From NCBI RefSeq assembly GCF_009498735.1, contig NZ_ML762450.1, forward strand, positions 1 to 44,502: a stretch of 44,502 nucleotides of DNA, in the 5' to 3' direction. This DNA is from Gracilibacillus oryzae (lineage in GTDB: Bacteria; Bacillota; Bacilli; Bacillales; Amphibacillaceae). The notes under the pieces were generated by a model that saw only the letters and a program-made list of their open reading frames with translations, ran no database searches and had not been told where the DNA came from. Of this stretch, positions 445 through 44,502 are shown piece after piece. Position 1 is the stretch's first letter. The number at the start of each line of letters is the position of its first letter. The translations under genes were made by a program, and so were the position numbers.

Positions 445-600
445 ATTACATACCTCCCTGATCGAGCCAATGTTTTGATGCCATGATGCTTTCTTAACTT
501 CAAAACTCACTAATCCTGCCAGCGTTTTGATGCCATGACGCCTTCTTATCATCATAACTCCATGAGCCAGACCAAATTTTAATAATATAAAACCAGCTTC
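445..600. repeat. degenerate 52-bp tandem repeat (about 3 units)
   Basis: The string GTTTTGATGCCATGA occurs at 472 and again at 524, exactly 52 bp later; a weaker third copy keeps the TTTT run in register at 577. Between the first two copies an inverted repeat TCAAAAC (500-506) / GTTTTGA (524-530) with a 17-base spacer is visible. The period equals that of the arrays at 26799 and 44090, although overall sequence differs. The units lie downstream of galU, beyond its terminator. Confidence 0.6.
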
Positions 601-666
601 TTTGTTTAGTACTATTATAGAAAGAAAGTGTTTTTACGTGCTTAATCCCGTAAGGTAATCACAAAA

Positions 667-708
667 AGAATCCGCACTGATTTTTCGTGTGAAAATCGTC
701 CGGATTCT
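667..708 (-). terminator. rho-independent terminator of galU
   Basis: The stem AGAATCCG / CGGATTCT encloses a second small hairpin. On the minus strand it is followed directly by TTTTT. It lies just after the galU stop codon in the direction of transcription. Confidence 0.75.
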
Positions 709-733
709 ATAATTTCTCATGATTCTTCTATAT

Positions 734-1609
734 TTATTTCACTGTTTGACTGACTAGGTCTTCCAGCATTTTCTGAACTTCTTCTCCTATTTCTTCATTT
801 TGAAGAGCGAATTCCAAGGTTGTTCGCACAAATCCCAGCTTCTCTCCTACATCATATCTTTTTCCTTCAAAGTCATAGGCAAATACACTTTGAGATTCAT
901 TTAATTGTTGAATCGCATCTGTCAATTGGATTTCTCCACCTGCACCTAATTGTTTTCGATCAAGATATTTCATTATTTCAGGAGTCAAAACATAACGACC
1001 CATAATCGCTAAATTGGAAGGAGCTGTTCCTTTCTCCGGCTTTTCAACAAATTGATGTACAGAATAACATTTTCCATGCTGTGCTGCAGGATCAACAATA
1101 CCGTAACGATGCGTGACATTCTCCGGCACTTGCTGCACTCCAATAACAGAGTTGCCCAAGTCTTGATATTGATCAATCAATTGTTTGAGGCACGGGGTTT
1201 CTGCTTGTACAATATCATCGCCTAATAAGACCGCAAAAGGTTCATCACCAATAAATTTCCGGGCACACCAAACTGCATGTCCTAATCCGAGCGGCTCTTT
1301 TTGACGTATATAGTGGATTTCGACAGATGCTGGCTGTTTCACTTTTTCTAATAATTCCAGCTTTCCTTTTTTCAACAAATTGTCTTCCAGCTCAAAATTG
1401 TTATCAAAGTGATCTTCAATGGCACGTTTCCCTTTCCCTGTCACAATAATAATATCCTCTATGCCAGATGCTACTGCTTCTTCTATTATATATTGAATTG
1501 TTGGTTTATCGACAATTGGGAGCATTTCCTTTGGCATTGCTTTTGTAGCCGGCAAAAATCTGGTTCCAAGCCCTGCTGCAGGTATGATCGCTTTTCTTAC
1601 TTTTTTCAT
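734..1609 (-). CDS. galU: UTP--glucose-1-phosphate uridylyltransferase
   Basis: Makes UDP-glucose from UTP and glucose-1-phosphate in the cytoplasm, feeding glycolipid, teichoic acid and exopolysaccharide synthesis. The 291-residue length is typical of the bacterial GalU/GtaB family. The N-terminal nucleotide-binding loop [20 protein letters not shown] and the following [14 protein letters not shown] are diagnostic, and VEKPEKG and [10 protein letters not shown] later in the chain are also conserved. The ATG start has GGAGG a few bases upstream. It is monocistronic: a terminator follows at 667-708 and the next gene upstream ends in its own terminator. Family assignment is very secure; several paralogues are common in Bacillaceae, so a dedicated pathway cannot be named. 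Confidence 0.95.
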
Positions 1610-1713
1610 TATAAATTATCCTCCATAATGGTGATTTTGTATCATCATATAGATTTTATCAAGAAATTATGATAAATATAATAATTTACAGTGAATTTAT
1701 TGTTAAAAAAATA

Positions 1714-1740
1714 GCATTCGCTTCTCACTCCAGCGAATGC
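1714..1740 (-). terminator. rho-independent terminator of the nitroreductase gene
   Basis: A perfect 9-bp stem GCATTCGCT (1714-1722) / AGCGAATGC (1732-1740) has a 9-base loop. On the minus strand it is followed by an ATTTTTTT tract. It lies about 50 bp past the stop of the nitroreductase gene. Confidence 0.85.
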
Positions 1741-1788
1741 TTAATATTACCGAACGGCCAATACCGTTGCCCAATGATAATCAATATA

Positions 1789-2355
1789 TTAGAAACTTCC
1801 TTTAATGATCGTTTCTTTCAGTGACCGGCGATTTGATGGCTTTTCTCGTTCCTGATAAGCCTCTTCCAGAATACTTATATCATCCTGGTAGCCTATCGCG
1901 ATAAGGGCATGAACATCATACTGGTCTGGAATATTCAAAAGTTCGCGAGCCTTATCTTTGTATATCCCACCCATCGCGTGTGTGATAAGTCCGTTTTTCC
2001 ATGCTTGCAGTGATAAATAGCCCCATGCAGTACCAGCATCAAAAGCATGAGCACCCCCTGCTTCTGTATCGGAAAGTAAGAGAGCGTATACTGGTGCAGC
2101 CTTGCACCATTTTAAATTACCTTCCATTATAAACTGGTTAAATAGATCCTTCTCTTCTTTCGTACTCGCGATCACAAAACGCCAAGGCTGTTTATTACTA
2201 GCTGAAGGGGCCCAGCGTGCTGCTTCAAAAATACTCATTAATACAGCTTCTTCCACTTCTTTCCCGGAAAAAGCTCTAGGTGACCAGCGATTTATAAACA
2301 TTTCATCGATTAAATAATCTGCTTTACGAAAATCATTCACATTCAATTTATCCAT
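1789..2355 (-). CDS. nitroreductase-family FMN oxidoreductase
   Basis: A 188-residue member of the nitroreductase fold family, which uses FMN and NAD(P)H to reduce nitro, quinone or similar compounds. Visible family marks are RWSPRAF near the N terminus (FMN phosphate contact), AARWAPSASNKQPWRF, and the C-terminal region with AIGY. Length fits short YdfN/YodC-like members. An in-frame upstream extension to 2445 exists, but the start at 2355 is preceded by GAGGAGG at proper spacing, so the shorter form is chosen. The gene stands alone with its own terminator. The substrate cannot be deduced. Confidence 0.88.
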   Translation of the reverse strand: MDKLNVNDFRKADYLIDEMFINRWSPRAFSGKEVEEAVLMSIFEAARWAPSASNKQPWRFVIASTKEEKDLFNQFIMEGNLKWCKAAPVYALLLSDTEAGGAHAFDAGTAWGYLSLQAWKNGLITHAMGGIYKDKARELLNIPDQYDVHALIAIGYQDDISILEEAYQEREKPSNRRSLKETIIKGSF

Positions 2356-2469
2356 AACTATTCCTCCTCTGCTTTCTTTATTATAGGAGATGAATTGATC
2401 AAGTTCAAAAGATTGGACCGAATCACCTATTGCGGCAGATTTCATACATTATAGCGAGGAGGTATGGGT

Positions 2470-2634
2470 ATGCGCACATTTTTTTCTTTTTTTACTATTA
2501 TGTTTTTAGGATTTTTAATCTTTATACCAACATTGCTTTTCATCGTCCCATTTATAGGTATAAAGGTCTTCCTTGTTATCATTATTTTATTCATAATAGG
2601 ATTCAGTTTGGAATTATTTAAGTCTTTTTTATGA
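2470..2634 (+). CDS. small hydrophobic membrane peptide (54 aa)
   Basis: A 54-residue open frame starts at ATG 2470, seven bases after a near-perfect GAGGAGGT; a second in-frame ATG six bases earlier is too close to it. The product is almost entirely hydrophobic (FFSFFTIMFLGFLIFIP, then IGIKVFLVIIILFIIGF), consistent with two transmembrane helices. No family is recognised. It sits between the divergent nitroreductase and the XRE-TPR regulator downstream on the same strand. The good ribosome binding site argues it is real; function unknown. Confidence 0.55.
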   Translation: MRTFFSFFTIMFLGFLIFIPTLLFIVPFIGIKVFLVIIILFIIGFSLELFKSFL

Positions 2635-2732
2635 CAAAAAGTAAATTTTTTATAAAAAAAGAAGGAAAAAGAACTATTATGTCGAAAAAAGTATATAGTG
2701 AATTTATAAATTAAAGAAAAGAGGTTGATGAC

Positions 2733-3995
2733 GTGTTTCATTATGGTAAATTAATTAGAGATTACCGTAAGAGAAAGCATATGACACAGAAAGAACTGGC
2801 TATCGCAAGCAACTGTTCCTATTCCTATATCAGCAAAATTGAATCAGGTAAAATCGAGCCACCAAAGGATCTGATTGTAAAAATATCAGAAATACTGGAA
2901 ATTAAAGAATTACAAGATAACTACACGACCTCTCCTCAATTGGCGGACAAGCTAATAGAATGGCATCATACCATCAATGAACACAGAATCTTTAATGCGG
3001 ACAAGCTGTTTAAAGAACTGAAACCTCATTTCCCTTTACATCATATCAATTTAAACACACATTACTATATTAACCTTTTCCGCCATTTCTTACTTCGTTT
3101 TGACCATGCCCAAGCTAAACTCTTATTACCTAGAATCCTTGACTACACGAAAACTCTATACAAACAGGAATTATATATTTGTTATAAATCCCTCGGATAT
3201 TATTTTCTTCTTGATAATGATATCAAAAAGGCTTTACATTATTTGCAGCTGGCACGAAATACGGAAGATGTTTCAATAAATGAACCTGAAATTCATATAT
3301 ACTTTGCCATTATACATATTTACTTAAATGAGCCTGCTCATGCAGAGAATGAACTGATGGAAGCAAAAACTTATTATGAAACTCAAGTGGATCCGATCAA
3401 TCATCTTCTATTTAAATATTTACTTACTTTTCCTGACATCCTGCGCCATAAACATGACAAAGTCGTTAGTTCATTAGAAAAGATTCTGTCGCACTCTGTT
3501 TATCATTCCTTCCAAATAAAATATGAATTAATCTATTTCACATTAGGTTATATTTATATTGAAGAAAAGCAATTTAATAAAGCGATTTCAATATTGAGAA
3601 AAGCCATAACTAAAGAAAAAAATCCACTTTTTAAAGTAAAATATATCTACTTCCTTGCTATAGCGTATGCTTATAATGGCCAAAAAAATGAATCCCTTGA
3701 TTATATCCAAATTGGAATCGGGCTGAAATCAAACAGAAAATACCAGTATTGGCTCTATATTTTAAAAAAGATTATGTCAAATAAACTGTGTACAGAAGAA
3801 ACGAGCTTATACATCCATAAAAATATGCTTCCATACTTTACGAATACAGGCGACCAGCCTCAAATAAATGAATGTCACTTATTACTGTCGATCATTTATC
3901 ACAAAATGAATCATTATAAAAGAGCTAACTCCCATTTATTTAATGTTGTGAATGGTTTTCAACTGGCAGAATTAACGGAAAAGTATGAAGTATAG
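2733..3995 (+). CDS. XRE-family HTH regulator with C-terminal TPR-like repeats (RRNPP type)
   Basis: A 420-residue cytoplasmic regulator. Residues about 5-62 form a clear XRE helix-turn-helix (RDYRKRKHMTQKELA, then CSYSYISKIESGKIEP). The rest is all-helical with repeated 30-40 residue helical pairs, as in the PlcR/NprR/Rgg (RRNPP) regulators that bind secreted and re-imported oligopeptides. The start is GTG at 2733 with AAAGAGG eight bases upstream; the ATG at 2728 is out of frame. No cognate pro-peptide gene is evident: the next gene codes for a DUF1540 protein. It could equally be a peptide-independent XRE-TPR regulator, so the peptide-sensing role is inference. Confidence 0.8.
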   Translation: MFHYGKLIRDYRKRKHMTQKELAIASNCSYSYISKIESGKIEPPKDLIVKISEILEIKELQDNYTTSPQLADKLIEWHHTINEHRIFNADKLFKELKPHFPLHHINLNTHYYINLFRHFLLRFDHAQAKLLLPRILDYTKTLYKQELYICYKSLGYYFLLDNDIKKALHYLQLARNTEDVSINEPEIHIYFAIIHIYLNEPAHAENELMEAKTYYETQVDPINHLLFKYLLTFPDILRHKHDKVVSSLEKILSHSVYHSFQIKYELIYFTLGYIYIEEKQFNKAISILRKAITKEKNPLFKVKYIYFLAIAYAYNGQKNESLDYIQIGIGLKSNRKYQYWLYILKKIMSNKLCTEETSLYIHKNMLPYFTNTGDQPQINECHLLLSIIYHKMNHYKRANSHLFNVVNGFQLAELTEKYEV

Positions 3996-4067
3996 CCATG
4001 TTGCCAGTTATCTCCACACATATAATTACCGGGTTGTTTGATACTGTTAACATAGGAGGTGTGAATG

Positions 4068-4223
4068 ATGGCGAAAGATGTGAAATGTGAAGTGAATAAT
4101 TGTAAATATTGGATGAATGGAAACAGATGTCGAGCCAATATGATTTATGTTGTCAGCCACACAGGTAAAAGCGCTTCAGATGTGCAGGAGACAGATTGCC
4201 ATACATTTGAAGCGAAAGTCTAG
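4068..4223 (+). CDS. DUF1540 small cysteine-rich protein
   Basis: A 51-residue protein reading MAKDVKCEVNNCKYW at its start and ending ETDCHTFEAKV. The four-cysteine pattern (CxxxxxC, then C, then C) and overall sequence match the DUF1540 family, common in spore-forming Firmicutes and thought to bind metal; no function is established. AGGAGGT ends seven bases before the chosen ATG; an adjacent in-frame ATG at 4065 would add one Met. It follows the XRE-TPR regulator gene by about 70 bp on the same strand. Confidence 0.82.
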   Translation: MAKDVKCEVNNCKYWMNGNRCRANMIYVVSHTGKSASDVQETDCHTFEAKV

Positions 4224-4294
4224 CCTTAAATTAGAATGACAGGACCTCACAGACAGGTTATATGTTTTTACCATCAATCGTGCCTTCTTTATTG

Positions 4295-4325
4295 ACCACA
4301 GCTAACATGTTTCATTAGCTGTGGT
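4295..4325. terminator. bidirectional hairpin between convergent genes
   Basis: A perfect 11-bp stem ACCACAGCTAA (4295-4305) / TTAGCTGTGGT (4315-4325) with a 9-base loop lies between the DUF1540 gene and the convergent LCP gene. T-tracts are weak on both sides, so it probably serves both genes, less efficiently than the other terminators here. Confidence 0.6.
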
Positions 4326-4331
4326 TCTCTG

Positions 4332-5255
4332 CTAATTTTTCTCTGTGATCATTTTGTAGACCTTCTGGATTTCCTCCTCATTGAAAATGAAATAATAGGT
4401 ATCATCAATGATTGATCCGCTTCCCTGCAACATATAGCTAGTAAAATTATTTCTAGTGTCACGGTAATCAGCCATTAAATCAAGCATATGATGAAATTTC
4501 ATATTTGTTGTCACATTATCACCAAGTACATTAATTACATCATTTATCTTCGTAATTGATTGAAGACTTATCCCTTTTTCCACTATTGCTCTGATTACTT
4601 GACGCTGCCGTTCTGTTCTGCCAAAGTCCCCAGATGTGTCTTCTTTCCTCATTCTGACGTAGCCTAATGTATGCATTCCATCCAAGTGCAACTCACCTTG
4701 ATGATAATGAAATCCGTCACTTCCATGCCAGTCAAGGTCATTGTTCACAGTGATTCCACCAAGTGCGTCAACTAGACCTGACAAACCGTCCATGTTCATT
4801 TTTATATAGAAATCTAATTTTATACCAAGAAATTCTTCGACTGTATCAATCGACATATCCACCCCGCCAAAAGCATAGGCATGATTAATTTTATCCTGAA
4901 TTCCTTTTCCGGAAATCTCTGTTCTAGTATCCCTTGGAATACTGATTAATTGCATCTGATTATGCTGCGGATCTAAAGTCAGCACCATTACTGCATCAGA
5001 CCGCCCTCTATCATCTGTCCTTTCGTCTACTCCTAACAAAAGAATATTCAAAGATTCTCTTGCGTCGATTTTCTTATTTGTCAGTGTTTTATCAATAGCC
5101 ACAACTTCTTTATGTATCTTTTCATTTACCGTACTTTTCGCATTGTGATAAATAGAATAAACATAACTGCCGCCTGCCAGAACTGTTATCAAAACAATCC
5201 CTATTACAACCCATAACCAAAAAGTGGACTTCTTCCTTTTACGTTGGTTGTTCAC
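4332..5255 (-). CDS. LytR-CpsA-Psr (LCP) family envelope ligase
   Basis: A 307-residue protein of the family that transfers teichoic acids or other glycopolymers from undecaprenyl carriers to peptidoglycan at the outer membrane face. There is a short basic cytoplasmic N terminus, one transmembrane helix at about 12-34, then the LCP domain with LLLGVDER, the conserved arginine motif ISIPRDTRTEI and KINHAYAFGG, and FGRTERQRQVI further on. The start is GTG at 5255, eight bases after AAGGAG. A TGCTATAAT extended -10 lies just upstream. With galU, the VanZ-like gene and the sortase nearby it fits an envelope gene cluster, although the genes are not one operon. Confidence 0.9.
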   Translation of the reverse strand: MNNQRKRKKSTFWLWVVIGIVLITVLAGGSYVYSIYHNAKSTVNEKIHKEVVAIDKTLTNKKIDARESLNILLLGVDERTDDRGRSDAVMVLTLDPQHNQMQLISIPRDTRTEISGKGIQDKINHAYAFGGVDMSIDTVEEFLGIKLDFYIKMNMDGLSGLVDALGGITVNNDLDWHGSDGFHYHQGELHLDGMHTLGYVRMRKEDTSGDFGRTERQRQVIRAIVEKGISLQSITKINDVINVLGDNVTTNMKFHHMLDLMADYRDTRNNFTSYMLQGSGSIIDDTYYFIFNEEEIQKVYKMITEKN

Positions 5256-5293
5256 ACTGGTTTCTCCTTAATATGGAAATTTTTGATACTTAT

Positions 5294-5302
5294 ATTATAG
5301 CA
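5294..5302 (-). promoter_or_regulatory. extended -10 promoter for the LCP gene
   Basis: On the minus strand TGCTATAAT (TATAAT at 5294-5299 with the TG extension) lies about 40 bp before the GTG start of the LCP gene. No good -35 hexamer is seen at 17 bp, which is tolerated in extended -10 promoters. Confidence 0.4.
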
Positions 5303-5345
5303 CAAGTAAAAAAAACCGGGCATATTATTTGGAGAAATAGTTGTT

Positions 5346-7060: not shown

Positions 7061-7066
7061 CTTTCT

Positions 7067-16152: not shown

Positions 16153-17670
16153 TCACATCCCTCCTGCCATCTCTTTCATTAAGTCCTGTTGCGTTAATTC
16201 ACGATCATTATCAAACTCCTGCACTTTCTTTCGATCCCGAAGTACTGCTATTCTGTCACATGTTCTCAATATCTCCTCAATCTCAGATGAAATGAATAAA
16301 ATTGACTTATTTTCTTTACTCAAATGTGTCATTAATTTCATAATTTCTGTTTTTGCCCCAATATCAATTCCGCGAGTTGGTTCATCCAAAATCAACAAAT
16401 CAGGATTAGTGACAAGCCATCTTGCAAGCATTACTTTTTGCTGATTGCCGCCACTAAGATTCTTAATTAATTGTTCTGGATTAGCTGGTCTGATATTTAA
16501 CAATTGAATATATTCTTCTGCAATCTTCATTTGCTTTGCTCTTGATAGATAACGAAACCAGCCATAAACACTTTGGATCGCCAGAATCATATTCTCTCTA
16601 ACCGTTAATTCTGGAATGATCCCTTCTGTTTTTCGATTTTCCGAACAAAAACCTATCTTATTGAGAATCGCACTTCTTGGTGTGGTAAAGTGAACATCCT
16701 TCCCGTTTATTGTCATTTTTCCTTTATCTGCTTTATCTGCACCAAACAAAACACGTGCCATCTCTGTTCGGCCAGAACCTAATAATCCTGCCAGACCATA
16801 GATTTCTCCTTTGCGCAATTCCAGATCAAATGGACTAATCTTCCCATTTAACCCAACCTCGTTAGCTTGGAGCATGGATTCTAAAGTATCTGACTGACTT
16901 ATATCTGTAGTTTTAGAAGAGATGGCTTCCAATTCAGCTAAATCTTTGCCTATCATTTTGGAAACAAGCTCCATCCGGTCGATTGCTTCTGTTTTATATT
17001 CACCGATCCACTCACCATTCCGTAATACAGTTAAGCGATCCGTAATTTCATAGATTTGATCTAAAAAGTGGCTAACAAAGACAATGGCAAGTCCGTCTTT
17101 TTTCAATTGTCTCATCACAGCAAAAAGCTGCTGAACTTCATCACGGTCCAAACTGGATGTTGGCTCATCTAAGATTAGAATTTTAGCAGATACATTAAGC
17201 GCACGTGCAATTGCAACCATCTGTTGAATTGCTACTGAATAGGAAGATAACAGCTTTGTCACGTCAATATTAAGCTGTAATCTTTCTAATAATTTCTCTG
17301 CATGCTGGTTCATCTCTTTCCATGCCAGTCTGCCGTATTTCTTTATTTCCCTTCCAATAAAAATATTTTCCGTTACAGAAAGGTTGCTGCAAAGATTCAC
17401 TTCCTGATACACTGTGCTTATTCCAAGCTCCTGTGCCTTTAACGGGCTATTAATCGAAACCTGCTTCCCTTCAAGGGTAACGGTTCCTTGATCAATCGAG
17501 TACACACCTGTTAATACTTTAATTAACGTTGATTTACCTGCACCGTTTTCCCCCATTAGTGCATGAACTTCACCAGGATAGAGTGATAATTGCACATCAG
17601 AAAGAGCTTTCACACCTGGAAATTCTTTTACGATATTTTTCATTTCTAATTTCGCTAGCTGCTGAGCCAA
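16153..17670 (-). CDS. ytfR: sugar ABC transporter ATPase, duplicated (YtfR type)
   Basis: A 505-residue ATPase made of two ABC cassettes, as in RbsA/MglA/YtfR. The first cassette has Walker A GENGAGKST and Walker B ILDEPTSSLD, with a degenerate signature (SYSVAIQQM). The second has a shortened Walker A (GLLGSGRTE), the signature LSGGNQQK and Walker B ILDEPTRGID. It energises import through the YtfT/YjfF-type channel. The start is TTG at 17670 with GGGAGG eight bases upstream. An 82-bp gap with a hairpin separates it from the binding-protein gene. Confidence 0.92.
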   Translation of the reverse strand: MAQQLAKLEMKNIVKEFPGVKALSDVQLSLYPGEVHALMGENGAGKSTLIKVLTGVYSIDQGTVTLEGKQVSINSPLKAQELGISTVYQEVNLCSNLSVTENIFIGREIKKYGRLAWKEMNQHAEKLLERLQLNIDVTKLLSSYSVAIQQMVAIARALNVSAKILILDEPTSSLDRDEVQQLFAVMRQLKKDGLAIVFVSHFLDQIYEITDRLTVLRNGEWIGEYKTEAIDRMELVSKMIGKDLAELEAISSKTTDISQSDTLESMLQANEVGLNGKISPFDLELRKGEIYGLAGLLGSGRTEMARVLFGADKADKGKMTINGKDVHFTTPRSAILNKIGFCSENRKTEGIIPELTVRENMILAIQSVYGWFRYLSRAKQMKIAEEYIQLLNIRPANPEQLIKNLSGGNQQKVMLARWLVTNPDLLILDEPTRGIDIGAKTEIMKLMTHLSKENKSILFISSEIEEILRTCDRIAVLRDRKKVQEFDNDRELTQQDLMKEMAGGM

Positions 17671-17693
17671 TTTGTCTGCCTCCCTCTCAAATC

Positions 17694-17732
17694 AGTAAGC
17701 CTAAAGCAAATCAGCATTGCTGTAGGCTACTT
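17694..17732 (-). other. intercistronic hairpin after the binding-protein gene
   Basis: On the minus strand AGTAGCCTA pairs with TAGGCTTACT (one bulge). No T-tract follows. In ABC operons such stems commonly protect the binding-protein mRNA so that it is made in excess over the membrane parts; that role is inferred here. Confidence 0.5.
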
Positions 17733-17752
17733 CATTGCATTATGGTTATTTT

Positions 17753-18835
17753 TTAATATTTACGTGTTGGCAGAAGCTCTTCTGCTTGATCCATTGTGTA
17801 CATGCTTTCTTCTACTGCAATACGTTTTTCAATTTCTCCTCCAGCAGCATGCTTTTCGATTAACTCTACTAATTGCGGGCCGAACAATGGATTACATTCA
17901 ATGGTTACATTCATTTTTCCATCTGCCATCGCTTCGAATGCTCCTCTTACAGCATCCACACCAATTATCTTAATGTCTTCACCTGGCTTTAATCCGTATT
18001 CTTCAATTGCCTGAATCGCACCAATCGCCATATCATAATTGTGAGAATATAATACATCAATATTTTCGCCATCTGATTTCAGGAAGGCCTCCATTACTTC
18101 TTTACCTTTTGCTCTAGTAAAATCACCTGTTTGCGATTTTATGATTTCAAACTTATCTTCTTTACTAACAATCTCTTCAAAGCCTTGTTTACGGTCAATC
18201 GCTGGTGCAGAACCAACTGTACCTTGCAATTCTACAATATTCACAGGTCCTTCCTGATCTGCCATTTCTTCCACTAACCAATTTCCTGCTTTACGGCCTT
18301 CTTCTACGAAATCAGAACCCAGGAACGTAACCCATAAAGAATCGTCATCAACATCTACGGCACGATCGACAAGAAACACTGGTATACCAGCATCCTTCGC
18401 CTCTCTTAATACTGTTTCAAATCCAGTTTCTACTACTGGCGAAAAGACAATTGCATCTACCTTCTGGGTAATAAAGGAACGTATAGCTTTAATCTGATTT
18501 TCTTGTTTTTGCTGCGCATCTGAGAATTTCAACTCATGACCAGCATCTTTAATTGCATTTTGAATCGATTTTGTATTAGCTGTACGCCATTCACTCTCAG
18601 CACCTACTTGAGAAAAACCTATTACTAATTTTTCAGCAGATTGATCATCACTTTCTTTTTCCTCTGTATCACTATTTGTTTCTTCCGGCTTAGTATCTTC
18701 CGCTGTCTGTTCTGTACCATTATCTGTATTTTCACCGTTTCCACTGCTTTCATCAGTAGAGCCACAAGCTGCTAACAATAATACTAGAAAGAATAACAAC
18801 ACAATTAATCCTTTAACTTTTAAAAATCTTTTCAT
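17753..18835 (-). CDS. ytfQ: sugar-binding lipoprotein, YtfQ type (galactofuranose-like)
   Basis: A 360-residue lipoprotein: signal peptide with lipobox LLAAC (Cys24), a long acidic Glu/Asp/Asn/Thr linker to about residue 70, then a periplasmic-binding-protein fold. Similarity to E. coli YtfQ is strong and collinear: IGFSQVGAESEWRTANTKSI, QQKQENQIKAIRSFITQKVD, PVFLVDRAVDV, VNIVELQGTVGSAPAIDRKQ, SQTGDFTRAKGKEVMEAFLK. It would deliver a furanose sugar to the YtfR/YtfT/YjfF-like channel. It is first in its operon; a cre-like site lies about 50 bp upstream. Ligand identity (galactofuranose versus arabinofuranose and others) is not settled by sequence. Confidence 0.9.
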   Translation of the reverse strand: MKRFLKVKGLIVLLFFLVLLLAACGSTDESSGNGENTDNGTEQTAEDTKPEETNSDTEEKESDDQSAEKLVIGFSQVGAESEWRTANTKSIQNAIKDAGHELKFSDAQQKQENQIKAIRSFITQKVDAIVFSPVVETGFETVLREAKDAGIPVFLVDRAVDVDDDSLWVTFLGSDFVEEGRKAGNWLVEEMADQEGPVNIVELQGTVGSAPAIDRKQGFEEIVSKEDKFEIIKSQTGDFTRAKGKEVMEAFLKSDGENIDVLYSHNYDMAIGAIQAIEEYGLKPGEDIKIIGVDAVRGAFEAMADGKMNVTIECNPLFGPQLVELIEKHAAGGEIEKRIAVEESMYTMDQAEELLPTRKY

Positions 18836-19108: not shown

Positions 19109-20350
19109 ATGAATGCGTTTACAAACCTCCGCAAATTATCCATTCGCTCAAAGTTTCTTATTTTATTTATTTTACTTTTCGTCTGGTTTGGTCTTATACA
19201 GCTTATACAGTTCTTCTTATTTATTAACTATATCAAGCAATACGACGATATAACAGAAACTGTTCATTTAACTAATTCCATTCATGGTGAATTAAGAGAA
19301 CAATTAGAGGAAGAAATTAGAGATATTGTTTATGGAAAAGTATATTTTGAAGAGGGCAGACAGTATCTGATTTTATCTCAAATGAAGGAACATCTTAACA
19401 CTGTTGCAAGAAAGGAAATGGCACAACCTTTTACAAAGGAATTGGTGGAGGTAAGGACAATTCTGGATACAACAACGGAATATGTCGATAAGCTAGGCAT
19501 GCAAATAAAATCTAATGCACCTGCTGAAGAAAAATATATTACACAAGAGTATATTGGAATTGTCTCAGGTTTAATAAATGAGCATGTTCAGAAATTGCTG
19601 CAAAAAACCTTGCAGGAAAGTGAAATTCAAAAGGAGACAATGAAAGATAAAATCAACCGAGACATTGTTATAAGTATTACAGTCTACATATTATTAGTTG
19701 TGGTGACTTTTTTCATTATATGGATCACATCCAAACACATGTTAAAACCAATCTACTCTTTGCAGCACCTTGCCAGGGAAATCACCAAAGGAAATTTAAA
19801 TGTCACGATAAACCCTGTAAAAGCAACGAATGAAATTGATGACCTTTATAACGGTTTTCTAGCCATGACCAATTATTTAAAACAAATTATTAGTAGAGTA
19901 CAACATACAAGCAAGGAGATCATCCACACCTCCAGACAAATCAATCAAAGCACAGAAGAGAATCTTGCGGCTGGCGAACAAATGGCCTCTGCCAGTCAAC
20001 TCATCACCCGCGACTTACAATCGCAGCATATACAACTAGAACAACTGCAACGTGAAAATGCAAACTTATTGCAAAAGCAACTAAGCTTTCAACAAAAGTT
20101 AAATCAACTTCCAGTGAAAAATACTTTCGTCAATGAACACACTTCCAATACCATCAACATGATCATTCAATTACAGAAAAATATCGAGGAATTCAAAACT
20201 CAAATCTCTCACTGTTTCACTAATATGGAAGTGATCGGAGCACTTGGAGAAGAACAATTAACTACAATCGAGGAGATTGCCGAAAACTCTGATAAGCAAC
20301 TTGCCTATTTAGACCAACTTCAGAAGCAATTAAGGCAATTTACTATCTAA
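19109..20350 (+). CDS. HAMP-domain membrane protein with MCP-like coiled coil, no output domain
   Basis: A 413-residue protein: transmembrane helix about 16-39, an extracellular helical domain of about 145 residues, a second helix about 186-208, a HAMP domain about 209-262, then a long cytoplasmic coiled coil to the end. The part SKEIIHTSRQINQSTEENLA resembles the methylation-helix region of chemoreceptors, but the conserved hairpin tip that binds CheA/CheW is absent and there is no kinase or cyclase domain. It is first in an operon with a YesM-type kinase, a YesN-type regulator and a sugar-binding protein. A role as accessory sensor or scaffold for that kinase is inference. TAGGAG precedes the ATG. 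Confidence 0.8.
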   Translation: MNAFTNLRKLSIRSKFLILFILLFVWFGLIQLIQFFLFINYIKQYDDITETVHLTNSIHGELREQLEEEIRDIVYGKVYFEEGRQYLILSQMKEHLNTVARKEMAQPFTKELVEVRTILDTTTEYVDKLGMQIKSNAPAEEKYITQEYIGIVSGLINEHVQKLLQKTLQESEIQKETMKDKINRDIVISITVYILLVVVTFFIIWITSKHMLKPIYSLQHLAREITKGNLNVTINPVKATNEIDDLYNGFLAMTNYLKQIISRVQHTSKEIIHTSRQINQSTEENLAAGEQMASASQLITRDLQSQHIQLEQLQRENANLLQKQLSFQQKLNQLPVKNTFVNEHTSNTINMIIQLQKNIEEFKTQISHCFTNMEVIGALGEEQLTTIEEIAENSDKQLAYLDQLQKQLRQFTI

Positions 20351-26700: not shown

Positions 26701-26798
26701 AAAAGCCTCCATTTTGCCTGTATTTGAATTCTTAATAAGCATGAGCGAGGGGATATAGACTTTATACCAATACCTATTATTAAAAACTGCTTTAATTC

Positions 26799-27058
26799 AC
26801 TTTTAACAGGAAATATTCACTCTTCAGCTCTTCGCTTTCCACTTTATTTTACTTTTAACAGGAAAACTTGCCTCTACTCCTCTTCGTTTTCCGCTTTATT
26901 TTACTTTTAACAGGAAAACTTGCCTCTACTCCCCTTCGTTTTCCGCTTTATTTTACTTTTAACAGGAAAACTTGCCTCTACTCCCCTTCGTTTTCCGCTT
27001 TACTTTACTATTAACAGGAAATATATTCCTTGCTCTCTTTGGATTTCCTTTTAAGCTT
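26799..27058. repeat. 52-bp tandem repeat array (5 units)
   Basis: ACTTTTAACAGG recurs at 26799, 26851, 26903 and 26955, with the variant ACTATTAACAGG at 27007: five units of exactly 52 bp. Units 2-4 are almost identical; units 1 and 5 are diverged. Each central unit carries the inverted repeat GGAAAAC - 18 bases - GTTTTCC. Unit 5 keeps the stem with different bases (GGAAAT / ATTTCC) and unit 1 keeps GGAAA / TTTCC. The array lies in the gene-free region between the acyltransferase and the broken cellulase. Confidence 0.9.
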
Positions 27059-27128
27059 GAAGCTTAACGATATATTGCTTAAAACACCAACTGGGAATCT
27101 GGTCTATTACTTAAGTTAAAAAATCCCC

Positions 27129-27239
27129 TTAAGTTTTACTTTTTCTCCTTGTGCCTCCATTCGGACTAAGGATTGCCATAATCTCACCCTTGTTCACTTC
27201 AAAGGAAATATCCTTGTGAAATGCTGTATAGTGTTTAAG
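27129..27239 (-). pseudogene. decayed ABC-transporter ATPase fragment
   Basis: On the minus strand a 36-codon open stretch reads YTAFHKDISFEVNKGEIMA and then ILSPNGG. This matches the strand before, and the start of, the Walker A motif of an ABC ATPase (expected GPNGAGKTT). The Walker A breaks off after NGG and the frame ends at TAA; the upstream side runs into TGA. No start codon or ribosome binding site. It is a remnant of a lost transporter gene, lying between the 52-bp array and the cellulase. Confidence 0.6.
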
Positions 27240-39219: not shown

Positions 39220-39480
39220 TATCTGCACCTCCTGTATTCCTGCATATGGAAGCAGTGGTATAAGATAGTTTAAGTGTATCACAATTATCTTGACGGTGGA
39301 CACAGGATTACACGTTCACCAACCTTCCATTTGCTACGCCTCGAGCCTTATTTCCCTCATAGGTTTAACCTAGTATAATAAAGAGTGACTTTGATAAGCG
39401 GGATATTTTTCCTCCGTTTTAGCGAAACTTATCAAGAGCTTAACGTCTGTAATAATAATCTCGATAAAGGAGCATTCGAT

Positions 39481-39873
39481 ATGTGGAAGAGAGTTGCTAT
39501 GATTTTTTTAACCCTGACATTCGCTATTATTATCCTGTTATTAGCTGCAAAAAATCCGACAGGACCTAATACCGTTTCTTTTGATGAACCAATTGGGCTT
39601 TTGCTGTCTGCCGGGATGGTAGTAGTATTATTTTTGCCACCTCTTATTTTAGCTTTTTTTCAACATCTAGTTGCAAGAATCGTTTCTGCCATTTATCAAG
39701 GATTTTTCGTTCTTAGTTTTTTAATCCTTATTCCAGTAGGCTTTCTTGCACCTGACTTCGGGGTGATTATCGTCGCTGTTGCAGGTATTATTATTAGTAT
39801 TTGCAGTATTGTTGTCACAATTGTTGCGGGAAGAAAAAAAGGATATCCAGACTCAGTAAAAATGTATGTATGA
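39481..39873 (+). CDS. small membrane protein with four hydrophobic segments
   Basis: 130 residues with four predicted helices (VAMIFLTLTFAIIILLLAA, IGLLLSAGMVVVLFLPPLIL, AIYQGFFVLSFLILIPVGFL, GVIIVAVAGIIISICSIVVT) and a short basic tail. No family is recognised. Longer in-frame sequence starts at 39385, but AAAGGAG eight bases before ATG 39481 supports the short form. TATAAT at 39374-39379 may be its -10. Its stop codon touches the start of structured element copy B. Confidence 0.6.
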   Translation: MWKRVAMIFLTLTFAIIILLLAAKNPTGPNTVSFDEPIGLLLSAGMVVVLFLPPLILAFFQHLVARIVSAIYQGFFVLSFLILIPVGFLAPDFGVIIVAVAGIIISICSIVVTIVAGRKKGYPDSVKMYV

Positions 39874-40311
39874 AAGTAGTCCCTATGCAATCCGGACAAA
39901 TTAATTGAATCGTCTGGATTATTTGCTTTTTGAAAACAGAATCTATCATCCTATACTCAATAACTGGTCCTTCTTTTGGAGCGAGACTTTCATTGGAATA
40001 AATGAACGTGCCTGATCTTCCCTCAAGTGCCCCTCTTTTCATGATGGTATTCGTTCCACTTATTAGTCTAGAAGATCACAAAAAGCTGGGGAAAATGCGA
40101 GACTCCAGTTGTTCAGCGCGAGCTGAAAATCCACTTGGTAAAGTGACTTTCTTTACCAAGTTAGTTGAAGCCGTGCCCACGGTAAAGAAGACACTGCTCA
40201 AGCGCATTTTGCTTGAGTAGATGTCGCCCTTATGCCCGTGGTGAAAGCGAGTATTTTCCCCAGCGGTGAGCTAGCACAAACTAAATTAGTACATTTGTAA
40301 TGAGACACTTG
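39873..40311 (+). repeat. dispersed structured element, copy B (RNA-like, 439 bp)
   Basis: Homologous to copy A over its whole length and in the same orientation, again starting AAAGTAGT right at the end of a plus-strand gene. Stems: AATCCGGAC / GTCTGGATT (39889-39920), TGATCTTC (40013-40020) / GAAGATCA (40071-40078), and the main domain GCTGGGGAAAAT (40085-40096) / ATTTTCCCCAGC (40253-40264). Relative to copy A it has about 60 extra bases inside the main domain, between CCCACGG and CCGTGG, forming an additional hairpin around GCTCAAGC / GCTTGAG. It fills the gap before the PIN-domain gene. Confidence 0.85.
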
Positions 40312-40365
40312 TGTATTTATTATGCAATTTTCGAATGTTTTTATGTCTCAACCCTCTCCCCATTT

Positions 40366-41466
40366 TTATACGAATTCCACTTCTCCAGCAAATAGGTTCA
40401 CCTTTTCCATACGGATAACGGGCATATGAATGCTCGCACTTATTGTGAACATTTTGTCTGCAGACAGGATCACAATGTCTTCCTCGCTCTGGTATTCATA
40501 CAGATAATCTGCAATAATTTTTTCATCATTTTCGTCTATTCGCAGATTGTTAGCTCGCATAAACTGAGCATTCCACTTTTTGACGATAAAATCACACGGT
40601 TTGTTTGTGCGTTTGCCATTTTCAACAAGTTCATCCAACCTGTCACGAGCTCGCTTGCCTTTGGATTTCTTCTCAGCGTCTCCCTTTTTTATATTATAAT
40701 CCCATTCCCCCTGCACTGTTTTGCTGATCAACAGTTTATGACGTTTAAGCTCTTCCATGATATAGTCATCACATTCCATCAGGATGTTTGTGTCGATGGC
40801 AATTCTCACATTTTTATTATCCCAATATCTCAAGCTGCTGATATTTGTATTCATAATTTTTAACATGTCATTATAAGACACCAGGTGTTTCTCCAGCTCT
40901 GCATGCAATTGTTCCATATAAAGATAAATTTGTTTGTTTCGTGCACGAACAGAATGGATCTCTTTTTTTAATTGGGCTGCTGCCTTCTTTTCCTTTTTGA
41001 CTATCTTAGTTAAGTCAGTAAACTGTCCTTCGACATCCTCCCTTTCTGTTTCCATTACTCTCACCGCTTTCTTCACCTTTAAGAGACGGCAGACCTGGTA
41101 TACAGCTAACATCCTTTTTACCATTCCAAAAGCAAGAAGAACGATAACCGTTTCCTTCAACGCCTGAGTCCAATTCCAACCAGCAGAAATGTTGGAAACG
41201 ATAAGAAAACCAATGGCAAGAAAAGACAGGAAAGTAAGGATGTCCATTTTTTCTTTACTGTCTTTTTCTGAACTCAAGCGCCAGATCATTGACTCTGGTA
41301 TGAAGATGGCAGAAAGGATGCCATCTACGAAATCGTAATCAATTTTCTTACTGTCATCTTCTATACCAAGCATTTCATGAAGCAAATGAGAATAAATCGA
41401 AAATAATATACAACCAATCAGGAAGGGAAGCCCCATCCAGTAACAGACAAAATTAATAATCTCCAT
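40366..41466 (-). CDS. membrane-anchored PIN-domain protein (putative ribonuclease)
   Basis: 366 residues. Hydrophobic segments at about 6-28, 76-95 and 103-120 anchor it; a basic coiled coil runs about 130-205; the C-terminal ~150 residues form a PIN-like domain with the expected acidic set: Asp225 (IAIDTNILM), Glu254 (VQGEWDY), Asp314 (DENDEKIIADYL) and Asp337 (VILSADKMF). PIN domains are Mg-dependent endoribonucleases. A membrane anchor plus coiled coil is unlike ordinary VapC toxins. It follows a Gln/Glu-rich coiled-coil membrane protein by 15 bp, forming a two-gene operon. No antitoxin gene is evident. The domain call comes from motifs; the biological role is unknown. Confidence 0.75.
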   Translation of the reverse strand: MEIINFVCYWMGLPFLIGCILFSIYSHLLHEMLGIEDDSKKIDYDFVDGILSAIFIPESMIWRLSSEKDSKEKMDILTFLSFLAIGFLIVSNISAGWNWTQALKETVIVLLAFGMVKRMLAVYQVCRLLKVKKAVRVMETEREDVEGQFTDLTKIVKKEKKAAAQLKKEIHSVRARNKQIYLYMEQLHAELEKHLVSYNDMLKIMNTNISSLRYWDNKNVRIAIDTNILMECDDYIMEELKRHKLLISKTVQGEWDYNIKKGDAEKKSKGKRARDRLDELVENGKRTNKPCDFIVKKWNAQFMRANNLRIDENDEKIIADYLYEYQSEEDIVILSADKMFTISASIHMPVIRMEKVNLFAGEVEFV

Positions 41467-41481
41467 TAATCAACATCCTCT

Positions 41482-42339
41482 CTAATAATCATTTGGGTCA
41501 TGATGGCCAAAATCATCATAACTGTTATAGTCATCCATTGAATCATAATCATCTTGCTGTGAGTCGAAATCATCAAAAGGGTCATTGTTACTGTAATCAT
41601 CAGAATGAAAGCCCATCCCGTTTGCCTCGCCATCTTCCATTTCAGCGCGAATCATATCGCCATTGGTATTGTTCATCTCTTCTTCCATCTGCCTTTGCTG
41701 CTCTTCCATCAATCGCTGCTGTTCTTCCATTTGCAGCTGTTCATCCAACTGTCGCTGTTCCTCATCCATTTGTGTCTGAAACTCATCATCCTGTCGTTGC
41801 TGTTCTTCTATCAGCTCCTGCTCTTCTTCCCATTCCTGCTCCGCGATCAGTTCCTGCTCTTCCAGCAACTGGTCATCCTCCTCCATTTCATCTTCGATCG
41901 ATAACTGGTTTTCAAAAAAGCTATCTCGCTCTTCAAGAACCTCTTTATAACTGTGAATATTTTCTTCATACGTACTGAATAATTCCAGATTGCTCATTTC
42001 ATCCAGGTCAGTCTGATTGTATGTATTCAGGATACTGAGTGCCTGTCCTTCTGTAAGACTGGATTGTAATATGGTGTTTCGCTTTTGGATAAACTGTTCT
42101 TTAAACTGAAGCCAGCTTTCTTGCTCTGTTTGTGACTGTTTCAGCACACCCTGCAGCTCTTCTCCTTTTTTGGCAATGGTTTCCTGTACCACTGTCAGAT
42201 CATTTAACTTTTCTTGTTTGTCTTGAAGTTGTTCTTTTACGGAATGTAATTGCTCCTTCAAACCTTCTAAATCGTGATCTTTCGTAAAAAATACTAATAA
42301 ACCCAGAATAAGCATGATAATAATGACGATTGTTTCCAA
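41482..42339 (-). CDS. membrane-anchored Gln/Glu-rich coiled-coil protein with acidic tail
   Basis: 285 residues: an N-terminal transmembrane helix (IVIIIMLILGLLVFF), a coiled coil about 22-80 (LKEQLHSVKEQLQDKQEKLN), a middle helical part, then a long repeat-rich stretch of EEQ/EEQQRQM units at about 150-225, and a disordered C-terminal tail rich in Asp, Asn, Ser and Tyr ending HHDPNDY. The start is TTG at 42339 after GAGGAGG. It is the first gene of the operon with the PIN-domain protein. The coiled coils of both products suggest they bind each other. No family is recognised. Confidence 0.75.
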   Translation of the reverse strand: METIVIIIMLILGLLVFFTKDHDLEGLKEQLHSVKEQLQDKQEKLNDLTVVQETIAKKGEELQGVLKQSQTEQESWLQFKEQFIQKRNTILQSSLTEGQALSILNTYNQTDLDEMSNLELFSTYEENIHSYKEVLEERDSFFENQLSIEDEMEEDDQLLEEQELIAEQEWEEEQELIEEQQRQDDEFQTQMDEEQRQLDEQLQMEEQQRLMEEQQRQMEEEMNNTNGDMIRAEMEDGEANGMGFHSDDYSNNDPFDDFDSQQDDYDSMDDYNSYDDFGHHDPNDY

Positions 42340-42498
42340 ATTTTTTCTCCTCCTCTTGATTCAGCAATTATTTTATGCTAAATTTTAATTATGGCTAAAA
42401 TTCGATAACTAATGTAAATTTATCGTTGTTGAATTATCATATAACGAAAGATAAAAAAATACAATCATTTTTTTTAGAAGTTTAAAGGAGGAAGTGAA

Positions 42499-43026
42499 GT
42501 GGAACTATTTCAGATTTATACAATAAGAGGAAGCAGATTATGGCCGGCAGCCATTTACCAGCAGGAACAAACAGGTGAACTTACACAGTTACATAGCTTA
42601 GAAGAAATCAAACAAACATTAATTGCTAATGAGGAAATCGGCGTATGTGAATACAGCTCTCTGGGGGACTTTACTATAGATGATGTAATGTTTTATAAAA
42701 AAGGGATGATTGGCTCGATTGTCGGCCCAGTCCCTTTCACACCAATTAATCAAATGACACTGGATCATGTTTTATCAATTAAAGAAGCGGCTGAAATCTG
42801 GAAACTGTCAGATGGCAATATTATTCGCAAAGCAATTGATCGCGGCAATTTTGAGAAAGGAGAAGTCCGGAAGTCAGGCTCCACTTGGTTAATTTCCTAT
42901 GCAGGAATGCAGCGGATGTATGAAGCAGTGCCTGAGACTAAAGAAGAAGACTTCCCGCGGCTTCGCGTCCACAAGATGGAATTCAATTTCGAGAAAGGCA
43001 AAATGAAGCCAATCCCATTATTTTAA
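42499..43026 (+). CDS. small protein with excisionase-like helix-turn-helix
   Basis: 175 residues. An N-terminal ~90-residue domain (ELFQIYTIRGSRLWPAAIY) of unknown type is followed by a MerR/excisionase-like HTH at about 92-145 (LSIKEAAEIWKLSDGNIIRK, then GSTWLISYAGMQRMYE) and a basic tail. The start is GTG at 42499, seven bases after GGAGG. It is divergent from the coiled-coil/PIN operon, so it could regulate that operon; this is suggested only by position. Confidence 0.7.
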   Translation: MELFQIYTIRGSRLWPAAIYQQEQTGELTQLHSLEEIKQTLIANEEIGVCEYSSLGDFTIDDVMFYKKGMIGSIVGPVPFTPINQMTLDHVLSIKEAAEIWKLSDGNIIRKAIDRGNFEKGEVRKSGSTWLISYAGMQRMYEAVPETKEEDFPRLRVHKMEFNFEKGKMKPIPLF

Positions 43027-43067
43027 ATATCCCGGGACAAGCTCTCATTTTGCGAGGAGGAAGAAAA

Positions 43068-43418
43068 ATGTTCGGTATACCGTCAAAGTATCCTTTAGAT
43101 AAAATTGCTTGTAATAGTTGTGATGATCCGGAGGTGATTCGACTGATACGGCATCGCGCGTGCTTTAATCAGTTTGTTTTGATGATATGGCTAGTGATTC
43201 CTTTTGCTTTTCTCTACAGTAGAAATCACAGTTTTGCCTGGCTGCTCCTTACTGTCCTCACACTTTTTTGTATCTTGAGTGTTATTCAGATTTACAGGAT
43301 GATAAAGTTTTATAAAAGGGAAAAAGAAGAGTGGTACCTGTTTTGTTTATCCTGCAAACATATGGGGACAGCACCTGCAAAGGATGTAACAGACATTGAA
43401 GTAAGAGAAACGGAATAA
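43068..43418 (+). CDS. small membrane protein with two CxxC motifs
   Basis: 116 residues: CNSC at 15-18, two transmembrane helices in the middle (FVLMIWLVIPFAFLY and WLLLTVLTLFCILSVIQI), then CLSC near residue 97. The paired CxxC motifs on the two ends, which would face the same side, could form one zinc site. GAGGAGG lies five bases before ATG 43068. It lies 41 bp after the HTH gene and 17 bp before the oxidoreductase, so the three may be one operon. No family is recognised. Confidence 0.65.
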   Translation: MFGIPSKYPLDKIACNSCDDPEVIRLIRHRACFNQFVLMIWLVIPFAFLYSRNHSFAWLLLTVLTLFCILSVIQIYRMIKFYKREKEEWYLFCLSCKHMGTAPAKDVTDIEVRETE

Positions 43419-43435
43419 AGAATGGAGAGATTTTG

Positions 43436-44056
43436 ATGAATATTTTGTTATTAGGTGCGACAGGAAGAGTCGGCAATAAGATTTTAGCAAAGGCGATAGC
43501 AGATCAGCATCATGTCACCGCACTCGTCCGCTCACCTGAAAAACTGACGATACAGTCTGATTATTTGAATATTATAGACGGAAATGTTTTGAATGAAGGA
43601 GATATTGCTAGTTCGATGGCTGATGCTGATGTTGTGATCAGCGCTTTAAACACAGACAAAAATAATACACTTACCAAAAGCATGCCGCTAATTATTGATG
43701 CAATGAAACAGCATGAGATTTCCCGGATTGTTACAATCGGAACTGCAGGAATTTTGGATAGCCGGAGCCAGCCGGATAAGTATCGTTTCCAGACAAATGA
43801 ATCCAAACGCCGGTCCACAACCGCTGCAGAAGATCACTTGGCTGCCTATCAGCATTTGAAAGAATCAGACCTTGAATGGACAATCGTGTGCCCTACTTAT
43901 TTACCTGAGGGTCATGAAAAAGGCCAATACCTAACAGAAAAAAATTTACTCCCGCTTGATGGCAAGGAGATTAAGACAGGAGATACTGCAGCATTTGCAT
44001 ACGCAGAGCTGTTCGAGAAAAATTTTGTTCACTTTCGTGTGGGGATTGCTTATTAA
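43436..44056 (+). CDS. NAD(P)-binding oxidoreductase, atypical SDR (YwnB/NmrA-like)
   Basis: A 206-residue Rossmann-fold protein. The dinucleotide-binding motif LLLGATGRVGNKIL is at the N terminus, followed by ALVRSPEKL, DADVVISAL, IVTIGTAGI and DLEWTIVCPTYL. These fit atypical short-chain dehydrogenases of the NAD(P)H-binding (YwnB) group, which include flavin reductase-like and regulatory members. ATG 43436 is chosen over the adjacent TTG; GGAGAG lies upstream. Substrate unknown. Confidence 0.85.
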   Translation: MNILLLGATGRVGNKILAKAIADQHHVTALVRSPEKLTIQSDYLNIIDGNVLNEGDIASSMADADVVISALNTDKNNTLTKSMPLIIDAMKQHEISRIVTIGTAGILDSRSQPDKYRFQTNESKRRSTTAAEDHLAAYQHLKESDLEWTIVCPTYLPEGHEKGQYLTEKNLLPLDGKEIKTGDTAAFAYAELFEKNFVHFRVGIAY

Positions 44057-44089
44057 GAGAAGGGTAAATGATTAGGCGTTCTCTTTTTC

Positions 44090-44502
44090 TGCTTCTCAAG
44101 GTGACTAAACCCGTTCCGAATGCCTTGAGCTTCTCTTTGCCTTTCTCTCAAGGCATTCACACCCGTTCCGAATACCTTCAGCTTCTCCTGGCCTTTCTCT
44201 CATGGCATTCACAACCATTCCGAATGCCTTGAGCTTCTCCTGGCCTTCTCCTCATGGCATTCACACCCATTCCGAATACCTTCAGCGTCTCCTTTCTTTC
44301 CTCTCAAGGCATTCACACCCATTCCGAATACCTTCAGCTTCTCCTGGCCTTTCTCTCCTGGCATTCACAACCATTCCGAATGCCTTGAGCTTCTCCTGGC
44401 CTTCTCCTCATGGCATTCACAACCATTCCGAATACCTTCAGCTTCTCCTTTCTTTCCTCTCAAGGCATTCACACCCATTCCGAATACCTTCAGCTTTTCC
44501 TG
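44090..44502. repeat. 52-bp tandem repeat array (8 units, continues past right edge)
   Basis: TTCCGAA recurs at 44114, 44166, 44218, 44270, 44322, 44374, 44426 and 44478: eight times at exactly 52-bp spacing, up to the window end. Units contain GGCATTC - 11 bases - GAATGCC, or the variant GAATACC. Two arm types (GAATGCCTTGAG and GAATACCTTCAG) alternate in a pattern that repeats every three units (156 bp) over the last six. The rest of each unit is C/T-rich on this strand. No open frame, no spacers. Confidence 0.92.

Follow-up and report, generated by a model that had tools for sequence, protein, structure and literature searches.

Tandem arrays of short units in the intergenic DNA of Gracilibacillus oryzae have a nearly uniform period and a common direction relative to replication. 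A 785-kb sample of this genome contained 31 tandem arrays that lie outside long open frames, 30 of them with a period of 51-53 bp. In 28 of 30 arrays the leading strand was the purine-rich one, as it was in 16 of 19 arrays of other genomes. The combination of a narrow period with a common polarity points to a shared mechanism that builds or uses the arrays. A sequence-only reading of the window (the whole stretch of DNA that was analysed, 44,502 nucleotides) had described three arrays of 52-bp units, and had held that a broad spread of periods lacking a peak at 52 would speak against a repeat system; such a spread was not seen in the sample.

Period and anatomy of the units

The three arrays of the window are indeed present (Table 1), and the boundaries of array 2 and the start of array 3 listed there are better placed than those first proposed. 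Array 1 lies next to galU (gene 734-1609, with an NTP_transferase match) and was missing from the TRF output at score 30; its identity at a lag of 52 was 0.663, compared with a maximum of 0.495 in shuffled sequence (lags 20-78; 0/2000 shuffles reached 0.663), and a lone family-D copy at C8:47768 matches it. The units of array 2 occupy positions 26796-27055, and its homologues are further arrays in the same genome. Array 3 runs past the end of the window, to about position 44694 of contig C27, and has 32 matches across the genome, itself counted. The three had been called unrelated, which holds for their sequence families but not for their architecture, which is common to them.

Table 1. Positions of the three arrays and of one array flank in the window.
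Feature	Position	Strand	Purine fraction (minus strand)	Description
Array 1	445..600	-	0.58	three degenerate 52-bp units, family D; 134 bp past galU 3' end
Array 2	26789..27048	-	0.69	five 52-bp units, family A, in divergent gap; TRF period 52
Array 3	44109..44502	-	0.70	7.6 units of 52 bp, family B; TRF period 52, score 567
Right flank of array 2	27044..27158			115 bp; also at C8:54754-54865 (flank of another array) and at the site in sister species G010

In the two largest families, A and B, the unit is built from a pair of conserved half-sites in inverted orientation; the loop and the linker are both purine-rich, and the loop is variable. Information content per column is 1.57 and 1.58 bits for the arms of family A (118 units; loop 0.43) and 1.48 and 1.49 bits for those of family B (120 units; loop 0.47), values that are inflated in the columns of the inner arms, by which the units were located; the outer columns of family A, unused in unit finding, are likewise conserved. 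One mismatch of the palindrome is fixed, with A in both columns 3 and 44 in 112 of the 118 family A units. Among all 60 collected arrays (periods 49-54), some of them related and hence not independent, 43 had a best consensus dyad above 200 base shuffles at p<0.05; taken singly, array 2 gave p=0.015 and array 3 p=0.07. The short dyads reported earlier are thus real, except that in array 3 the 11 bp given as the spacer are the linker side of the dyad. Selection for a hairpin within arrays was rejected on the absence of unit-by-unit covariation of the arms within 56 arrays. By eye, the half-sites of families A and C are distantly alike, as are those of D and E.

Unit spacing is exactly 52 bp in 228 of 269 cases and 51 bp in 35, and all 269 fall within 50-53 bp; the inner geometry differs between families, while total unit length stays near 52. 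Unit length looks constrained, because there are fewer indels per substitution in the arrays (74:1368) than in orthologous intergenic DNA (57:415; Fisher p=9e-7), a comparison to be read in the light of the preference of TRF for arrays with few indels. The arrays of this genome are made of entire repeated units with 78-96% TRF matches; a CRISPR array would combine a constant repeat with unique spacers. Single copies are less frequent than arrays, the 785-kb sample having three units outside arrays.

Replication, gene context and occurrence in other genomes

Families A and B keep a single orientation per contig, and on the six contigs for which the leading strand was determined, all 17 sites were concordant. 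The arrays also favour convergent gaps, which hold 10 of 23 sites but make up 16% of all gaps (p=0.0019); both this preference and the strand polarity are additions to the sequence-only reading. The polarity points to replication or single-stranded DNA rather than to simple same-face binding. A role at the RNA level, governed by gene sense, was also considered, arrays next to co-directional genes having mostly a purine-rich sense strand; it was dropped because the replication strand sets the orientation in convergent and divergent gaps too, and because array 3 deviates.

Further genomes of Gracilibacillus, another genus of its family, Neobacillus and Paenibacillus also contain arrays with a period of 51-52 bp, made of different sequences. 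Orthologous sites change fast: two of them carry either a lone unit or nothing in the sister species G010, with a single unit at the site of array 2, and comparable sites carry different families in different species of one genus. No such arrays were found in 40 stretches from 11 other genomes of relatives or in three 50-kb stretches of E. coli. Inspection by eye, rather than a statistical test, revealed no likeness between the Paenibacillus and Neobacillus units and those of G. oryzae. Array 2 was unmatched in a plasmid collection and array 3 in a phage collection. A larger transposon around the arrays was rejected, as the 115-bp flank of array 2 recurs at only one other place in the genome and in G010, and in 0/19 of the remaining genomes searched. 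Among the matches listed in the open-access literature, there was no account of such arrays.

Relation to known repeat systems

Within the arrays of the window and of five other stretches there was no Rfam match above the gathering score, and a known structured RNA was rejected on this ground; the window had none at all, and the single match in the other stretches was a TPP riboswitch located beyond the array. In integron attC sites, a variable loop is enclosed by inverted boxes that are conserved and contain fixed mismatches; the sites are folded single strands for which replication orientation matters. The array units share the inverted boxes, a fixed mismatch and the variable loop, but have no gene cassettes between them and a constant length of 52 bp. 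MIRU, STAR and BOX boxB are intergenic repeats of about 45-60 bp, arranged in tandem and variable in copy number; to our knowledge, each VNTR system of this type has one sequence family, whereas the several families described here have a period and a replication polarity in common. Chi and the KOPS/SpoIIIE motif resemble the arrays in being skewed to the leading strand, but are short, dispersed oligomers. The Chi motif AGCGG occurs at 4.38 per kb in arrays compared with 0.76 per kb; a reading as Chi was rejected, since the motif is found mainly in units of family A and in some of family B. A reading as the SpoIIIE-type octamer was rejected as well, that octamer occurring once in the sampled arrays.

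The likeness to REP, BIME and REPIN elements is broader: the arrays are imperfect palindromes, intergenic, in many copies and of several families, with 43 of 60 dyads above shuffles and 30 arrays outside long open frames in 785 kb. PMC3733652 describes REPs as imperfect palindromes in many copies, with several families per genome, intergenic and mainly between convergent or unidirectional genes. The arrangement differs, however, in that the array units are direct head-to-tail repeats at a fixed 51-53 bp, whereas REPs are paired in opposite orientation; the alternation of BIMEs and REPINs was not seen in the arrays, and the E. coli REP clusters examined here have alternating units at 28 and 54-79 bp. 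Unlike usual REPs, the arrays outnumber single units.

Canonical membership of the REP/RAYT system fails, because a GTAG/GTGG foot is absent next to the arms in the family A and B consensuses (other families were only looked over) and because two array-bearing genomes, G002 and G195, have no Y1_Tnp match; in G024 the sole match has the size of IS200. The G. oryzae genome has one RAYT-like Y1_Tnp gene (263 aa), which has units of family C no more than 1.3 kb away, and in other genomes 51-53 bp arrays were found within about 1.5 kb of RAYT relatives at 0/29 loci. Given these loci and the two genomes lacking a Y1_Tnp match, RAYT is unnecessary as a general driver. According to PMC6006769, its classes 2.6 and 3 also lack the GTAG/GTGG foot, so that a divergent REP class may be compatible with its absence here.

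Explanations for the arrays

The explanation that we tentatively favour, at somewhat under an even chance, is that the arrays are REP-like hairpins, which would be recognised as single strands in the template of the lagging strand and would multiply where they stand. Each unit of about 52 nt would be a non-coding imperfect palindrome of two 11-14 nt half-sites flanking a purine-rich loop; its recognition in this single-stranded form would set the orientation of the array relative to replication and would let units move to new intergenic sites, and head-to-tail amplification in place would proceed by unit length. A HUH-type or another dedicated enzyme may be responsible; according to PMC6006769, IS200/IS605 relatives insert on the lagging strand, and enzymes related to RAYT act on lagging-strand single strands. 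The REP-like model is favoured by the conserved arms around a free loop, the fixed mismatch, the replication polarity, the preference for convergent gaps, the scarcity of units at the two G010 sites, the three solo units and the RAYT-like gene with family C units nearby. It counts against the model that G002 and G195 lack a Y1_Tnp match, that the 29 loci of RAYT relatives have no arrays nearby, that the GTAG/GTGG foot is absent in families A and B, that the arms do not covary, that solo copies are rare and that it contains nothing that demands 52.

A dimeric host DNA-binding protein (nucleoid, segregation, translocase or topoisomerase partner) might instead occupy the inverted half-sites, with a spacing of about five turns kept by selection and a polarity that reads replication direction, like that of other polar motifs of the chromosome. 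Such binding, which we consider possible but rather unlikely, would fit the inverted and conserved half-sites with their free loops, the 269 of 269 intervals at 50-53, the low ratio of indels to substitutions, the constant total length over a varying inner geometry and the preference for convergent gaps. Five turns of 10.4 bp do make 52 bp, but if the helical repeat is 10.4 bp, the many-copy 51-bp arrays would drift around the helix, and 35 of the 269 spacings are 51. Helical phasing, by which the period had originally been explained, is not supported as a general rule: P. jilunlii has a 51-bp array of 11 copies, and quantisation by 10.4 bp was not significant in 14 other periods (Rayleigh p ~0.15), those up to 90 bp among 18 collected by hand. 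Moreover, a nearly symmetric dyad does not need polarity, and an essential role is unlikely in view of the sister species, which is nearly devoid of units at the same sites, and of the 0/40 stretches from 11 genomes. The polarity, the independence of length from sequence, the 43 of 60 arrays whose dyads exceed shuffles and the fast turnover would all agree with orientation-dependent replication slippage, in which the polymerase stalls or slips at hairpins of the lagging-strand template that have purine-rich loops, replisome geometry gives duplications of about 52 nt, and the arrays are a mutational by-product. We nevertheless regard it as improbable, since pure slippage would neither keep the arms more conserved than the loops across arrays at separate loci nor spread one family to many loci, and the stretches of E. 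coli and of the relatives had no such arrays. Shared descent from one ancient 52-bp element that split into families, its length kept by inheritance only, would be suggested by the distant similarity of half-sites between A and C and between D and E, but is very improbable: the Paenibacillus and Neobacillus units look unlike those of G. oryzae, indels are under-represented relative to substitutions, and different families occupy comparable sites across species of one genus.

It is also conceivable, though in our view doubtful, that a dedicated lagging-strand machinery without need for a Y1 transposase builds and keeps tandem hairpin arrays of 51-52 nt and of any sequence in several Bacillales lineages. 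Such a fork-tied ruler would make the arrays polar landmarks near gene ends, with half-sites that change rapidly between species. Fast-changing sequence combined with a fixed unit length and strand orientation implies a physical ruler that acts at the replication fork or on the structure of the chromosome, and array orientation is predicted to flip at the origin and the terminus in each array-rich genome. Identifying the ruler would show either that the REP/RAYT world reaches into Bacillales, with a novel mode of array building, or that there is a polar system of chromosome organisation.

Period and distribution of the arrays

The three tandem arrays that the sequence-only reading had pointed out are all real (Table), arrays 2 and 3 by TRF and array 1 by comparison of its lag-52 identity with shuffles. 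The identity of array 1 was 0.663, a value reached by 0 of 2000 shuffles (maximum 0.495; lags 20-78); the best 80-bp lag identity elsewhere in the window, arrays excluded, was 0.62 (lags 20-199). A 59-bp segment adjoining the flank of array 2 (window 27157-27215), by eye the broken start of an ABC-transporter gene, matched C8:68149-68207 at 95%. Among the matches listed, the galU gene of the window shares 84% identity with its counterpart in Gracilibacillus kekensis and 83% with the one in G. orientalis, and the genus is therefore probably Gracilibacillus.

Contig C27 is 52.5 kb long, and the window covers its first 44.5 kb; the draft genome to which it belongs has 53 contigs and totals 4.63 Mb. 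A census (TRF score 80, period at least 20, outside long open frames) covered 785 kb of this genome including the window, that is, all of C8 and C27 and 20-kb stretches from C1 (nine) and from C3, C4 and C5 (six each). The proposal of a period common to unrelated arrays was not refuted: a broad spread of periods with no peak at 52 bp was not found, and 30 of 31 arrays had periods of 51-53 bp. The remaining one, of 60 bp (L310 13417-13810 on C4, 6.6 copies), was the sole deviant outside long open frames; two arrays within long open frames, with periods of 21 and 234 bp, were counted apart. Together, the 30 arrays account for 1.28% of the sampled DNA, at a density of one per 26 kb. Centre-to-centre spacings of units (n=269, from 44 arrays, part of which had been retrieved through a match to sequence family A or B) were 52 (228), 51 (35), 53 (5) and 50 (1). 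Arrays contain fewer indels per substitution (74:1368) than intergenic DNA aligned to the sister-species genome G010 (57:415; Fisher p=9e-7), a deficit that may in part be ascertainment, as TRF prefers indel-poor arrays; the ratio in aligned coding DNA was 54 indels to 2955 substitutions.

Ten of about 23 array sites of family B (grouped from 32 matches) lie less than 500 bp from a contig end (Table), and therefore arrays probably break the assembly, so that their number is underestimated. In both C8:178975-179896 and C8:191335-192012, a 51-53-bp array of one family is followed by a family B array, the joining DNA (75-80 bp) being similar in sequence. The 23 sampled sites with called genes on either side of one gap (further sites, including window arrays 1 and 3, dropped out) comprised 10 convergent, 10 tandem and 3 divergent cases, compared to 48, 187 and 60, respectively, for all gaps of at least 100 bp, which is an excess of convergent sites (p=0.0019) under crude gene calls (open frames of at least 90 aa).

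Coordinates of the window arrays and of family B sites at contig ends
Feature	Family	Position	Remark
Array 1	D	window 445-600	degenerate, missed by TRF; lag-52 identity
Array 2	A	window 26789-27048	TRF
Array 3	B	window 44109 to past window end	TRF
Contig-end site	B	C34:78-616	
Contig-end site	B	C21:90-261	
Contig-end site	B	C28:144-494	
Contig-end site	B	C35:87-224	
Contig-end site	B	C24:231-378	
Contig-end site	B	C36:137-309	
Contig-end site	B	C3:307930-308127	
Contig-end site	B	C8:191531-192011	
Contig-end site	B	C22:60282-60449	
Contig-end site	B	C38:20846-21289	

Anatomy and strand polarity of the units

On the purine-rich strand, the family A unit consists of ATAAAGCGGAAAAC, an 18-nt loop, GATTTCCYGTTAAT and a linker. 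Information per column, over 118 units at 11 loci, is 1.57 and 1.58 bits for the two arms, 0.43 bits for the loop (76% purine) and 0.60 bits for the linker (71% purine). Family B (120 units; 20 of 21 loci tried) gives 1.48 and 1.49 bits for the arms and 0.47 bits for the loop (79% purine). All these figures are inflated, since the arms served to locate the units and the purine-rich strand was the one read. The outer columns of family A (1-7 and 40-46), which played no part in locating units, are for the most part conserved. Of 60 arrays with periods of 49-54 bp, 43 had dyads exceeding shuffles; mismatches are fixed at some columns (112 of 118 family A units have A at both positions of the pair 3/44), and the arms showed no unit-by-unit covariation within 56 arrays. 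The inner geometry varies between families, while the total length stays near 52.

With the leading strand assigned from local GC skew, the purine-rich strand was the leading strand in 28 of 30 arrays of the G. oryzae sample (24 of 26 where the bias is clear); in other genomes this held for 16 of 19 arrays, and for 13 of 13 where the bias is clear. Sampled genes lie mostly on the minus strand, with negative GC skew, in C8 (122/142), C1 (115/147), C4 (84/107), C5 (70/101) and C27 (25/42; the least clear bias of the six contigs); C3 is reversed, with 92 of 114 genes on the plus strand and the opposite skew. On each contig all family A matches share one orientation, as do all family B matches, and at 17 of 17 sites of these families on the six contigs of known bias the orientation agrees with the leading strand. 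Mean purine content was 0.621 in the 30 arrays versus 0.521 in 211 non-array intergenic segments, the latter weakly biased. Array 3 has plus-strand genes on either side, yet its purine-rich strand is the minus strand, which argues against gene direction as the determinant of polarity. AGCGG, the Chi motif of B. subtilis, has 44 occurrences on the leading strand and 9 on the lagging strand of the sampled arrays, and its leading-strand density is 4.38 per kb in arrays versus 0.76 per kb in the sample.

Occurrence and turnover in other genomes

Three genomes of the genus (G002, G015 and G008, the last chosen through a family A match) and G024, from another genus of the family, carry 51-52-bp arrays that differ in sequence. 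Around galU, TRF gave a row of 51-53 bp in 6 of 79 named loci (L123, L145, L152, L156, L168 and L180), some within open frames or low in copies; clear intergenic cases are those of Neobacillus soli, Paenibacillus jilunlii and P. senegalensis. In P. jilunlii (L145 763-1907), two 51-bp families with strong palindromes are adjacent, and the first recurs past 2000. Neobacillus mesonae has three 52-bp arrays, in two of four stretches. No such arrays were detected in six stretches of G011, in 40 stretches from 11 genomes of the family and order (G024 included) or in three 50-kb stretches of E. coli K-12. Other periods also occur, for example, 42 bp in Pontibacillus: P. chungwhensis L148 has long 42-bp arrays at 17213-18075 (20.7 copies) and 19318-19819 (12.0 copies), neither with a dyad exceeding shuffles. 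Arrays of 82 bp are present in Paenibacillus pectinilyticus (L171 703-1580, 10.8 copies) and N. mesonae (L291 9127-9444, 3.9 copies).

Orthologous sites differ, and thus arrays differ strongly within one genus. The array 2 site contains one unit in G010, and past the amidohydrolase gene adjoining ecsB there are about five units in G. oryzae and none in G010. At the latter site, the lag-52 signal of G004 is degenerate (0.68), G009 and G014 have lag-42 signals (0.73 and 0.78), and G001 has a fragment that by eye resembles the G002 family (lag-51 identity 0.55, within noise); the remaining genomes compared have no such signal there. G015 carries a 52-bp array on the opposite side of the amidohydrolase gene.

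Possible origin of the arrays

Since arms are conserved and loops are free in arrays at different loci, the sequence pattern would call for sequence-specific recognition of the units. The best-known cases of strand polarity are elements that are processed in single-stranded form on the lagging-strand template, such as those of the IS200/IS605 group (PMC6006769). Because the arms and loops imply recognition and the polarity recalls such single-strand handling, our tentative first choice is that the arrays might behave like REP elements. Its main rival, a putative host binding array, is somewhat less probable, and neither REP-like behaviour nor host binding accounts for the value of 52.

A RAYT-like enzyme as the general cause was rejected unless it has been lost elsewhere: G002 and G195 have arrays and no Y1_Tnp match, and such a match was absent from 9 of 32 genomes searched. 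Relatives of the RAYT-like protein of G. oryzae are present in 31 of 60 genomes of the family (E <= 1e-15). This protein (263 aa) is the only Y1_Tnp protein of the genome, and family C units lie within 1.3 kb of its gene (L194 226-370 and 1096-1147, contig C24). The gene and these units possibly form a REPtron, and in G. oryzae family C may be a substrate of the enzyme.
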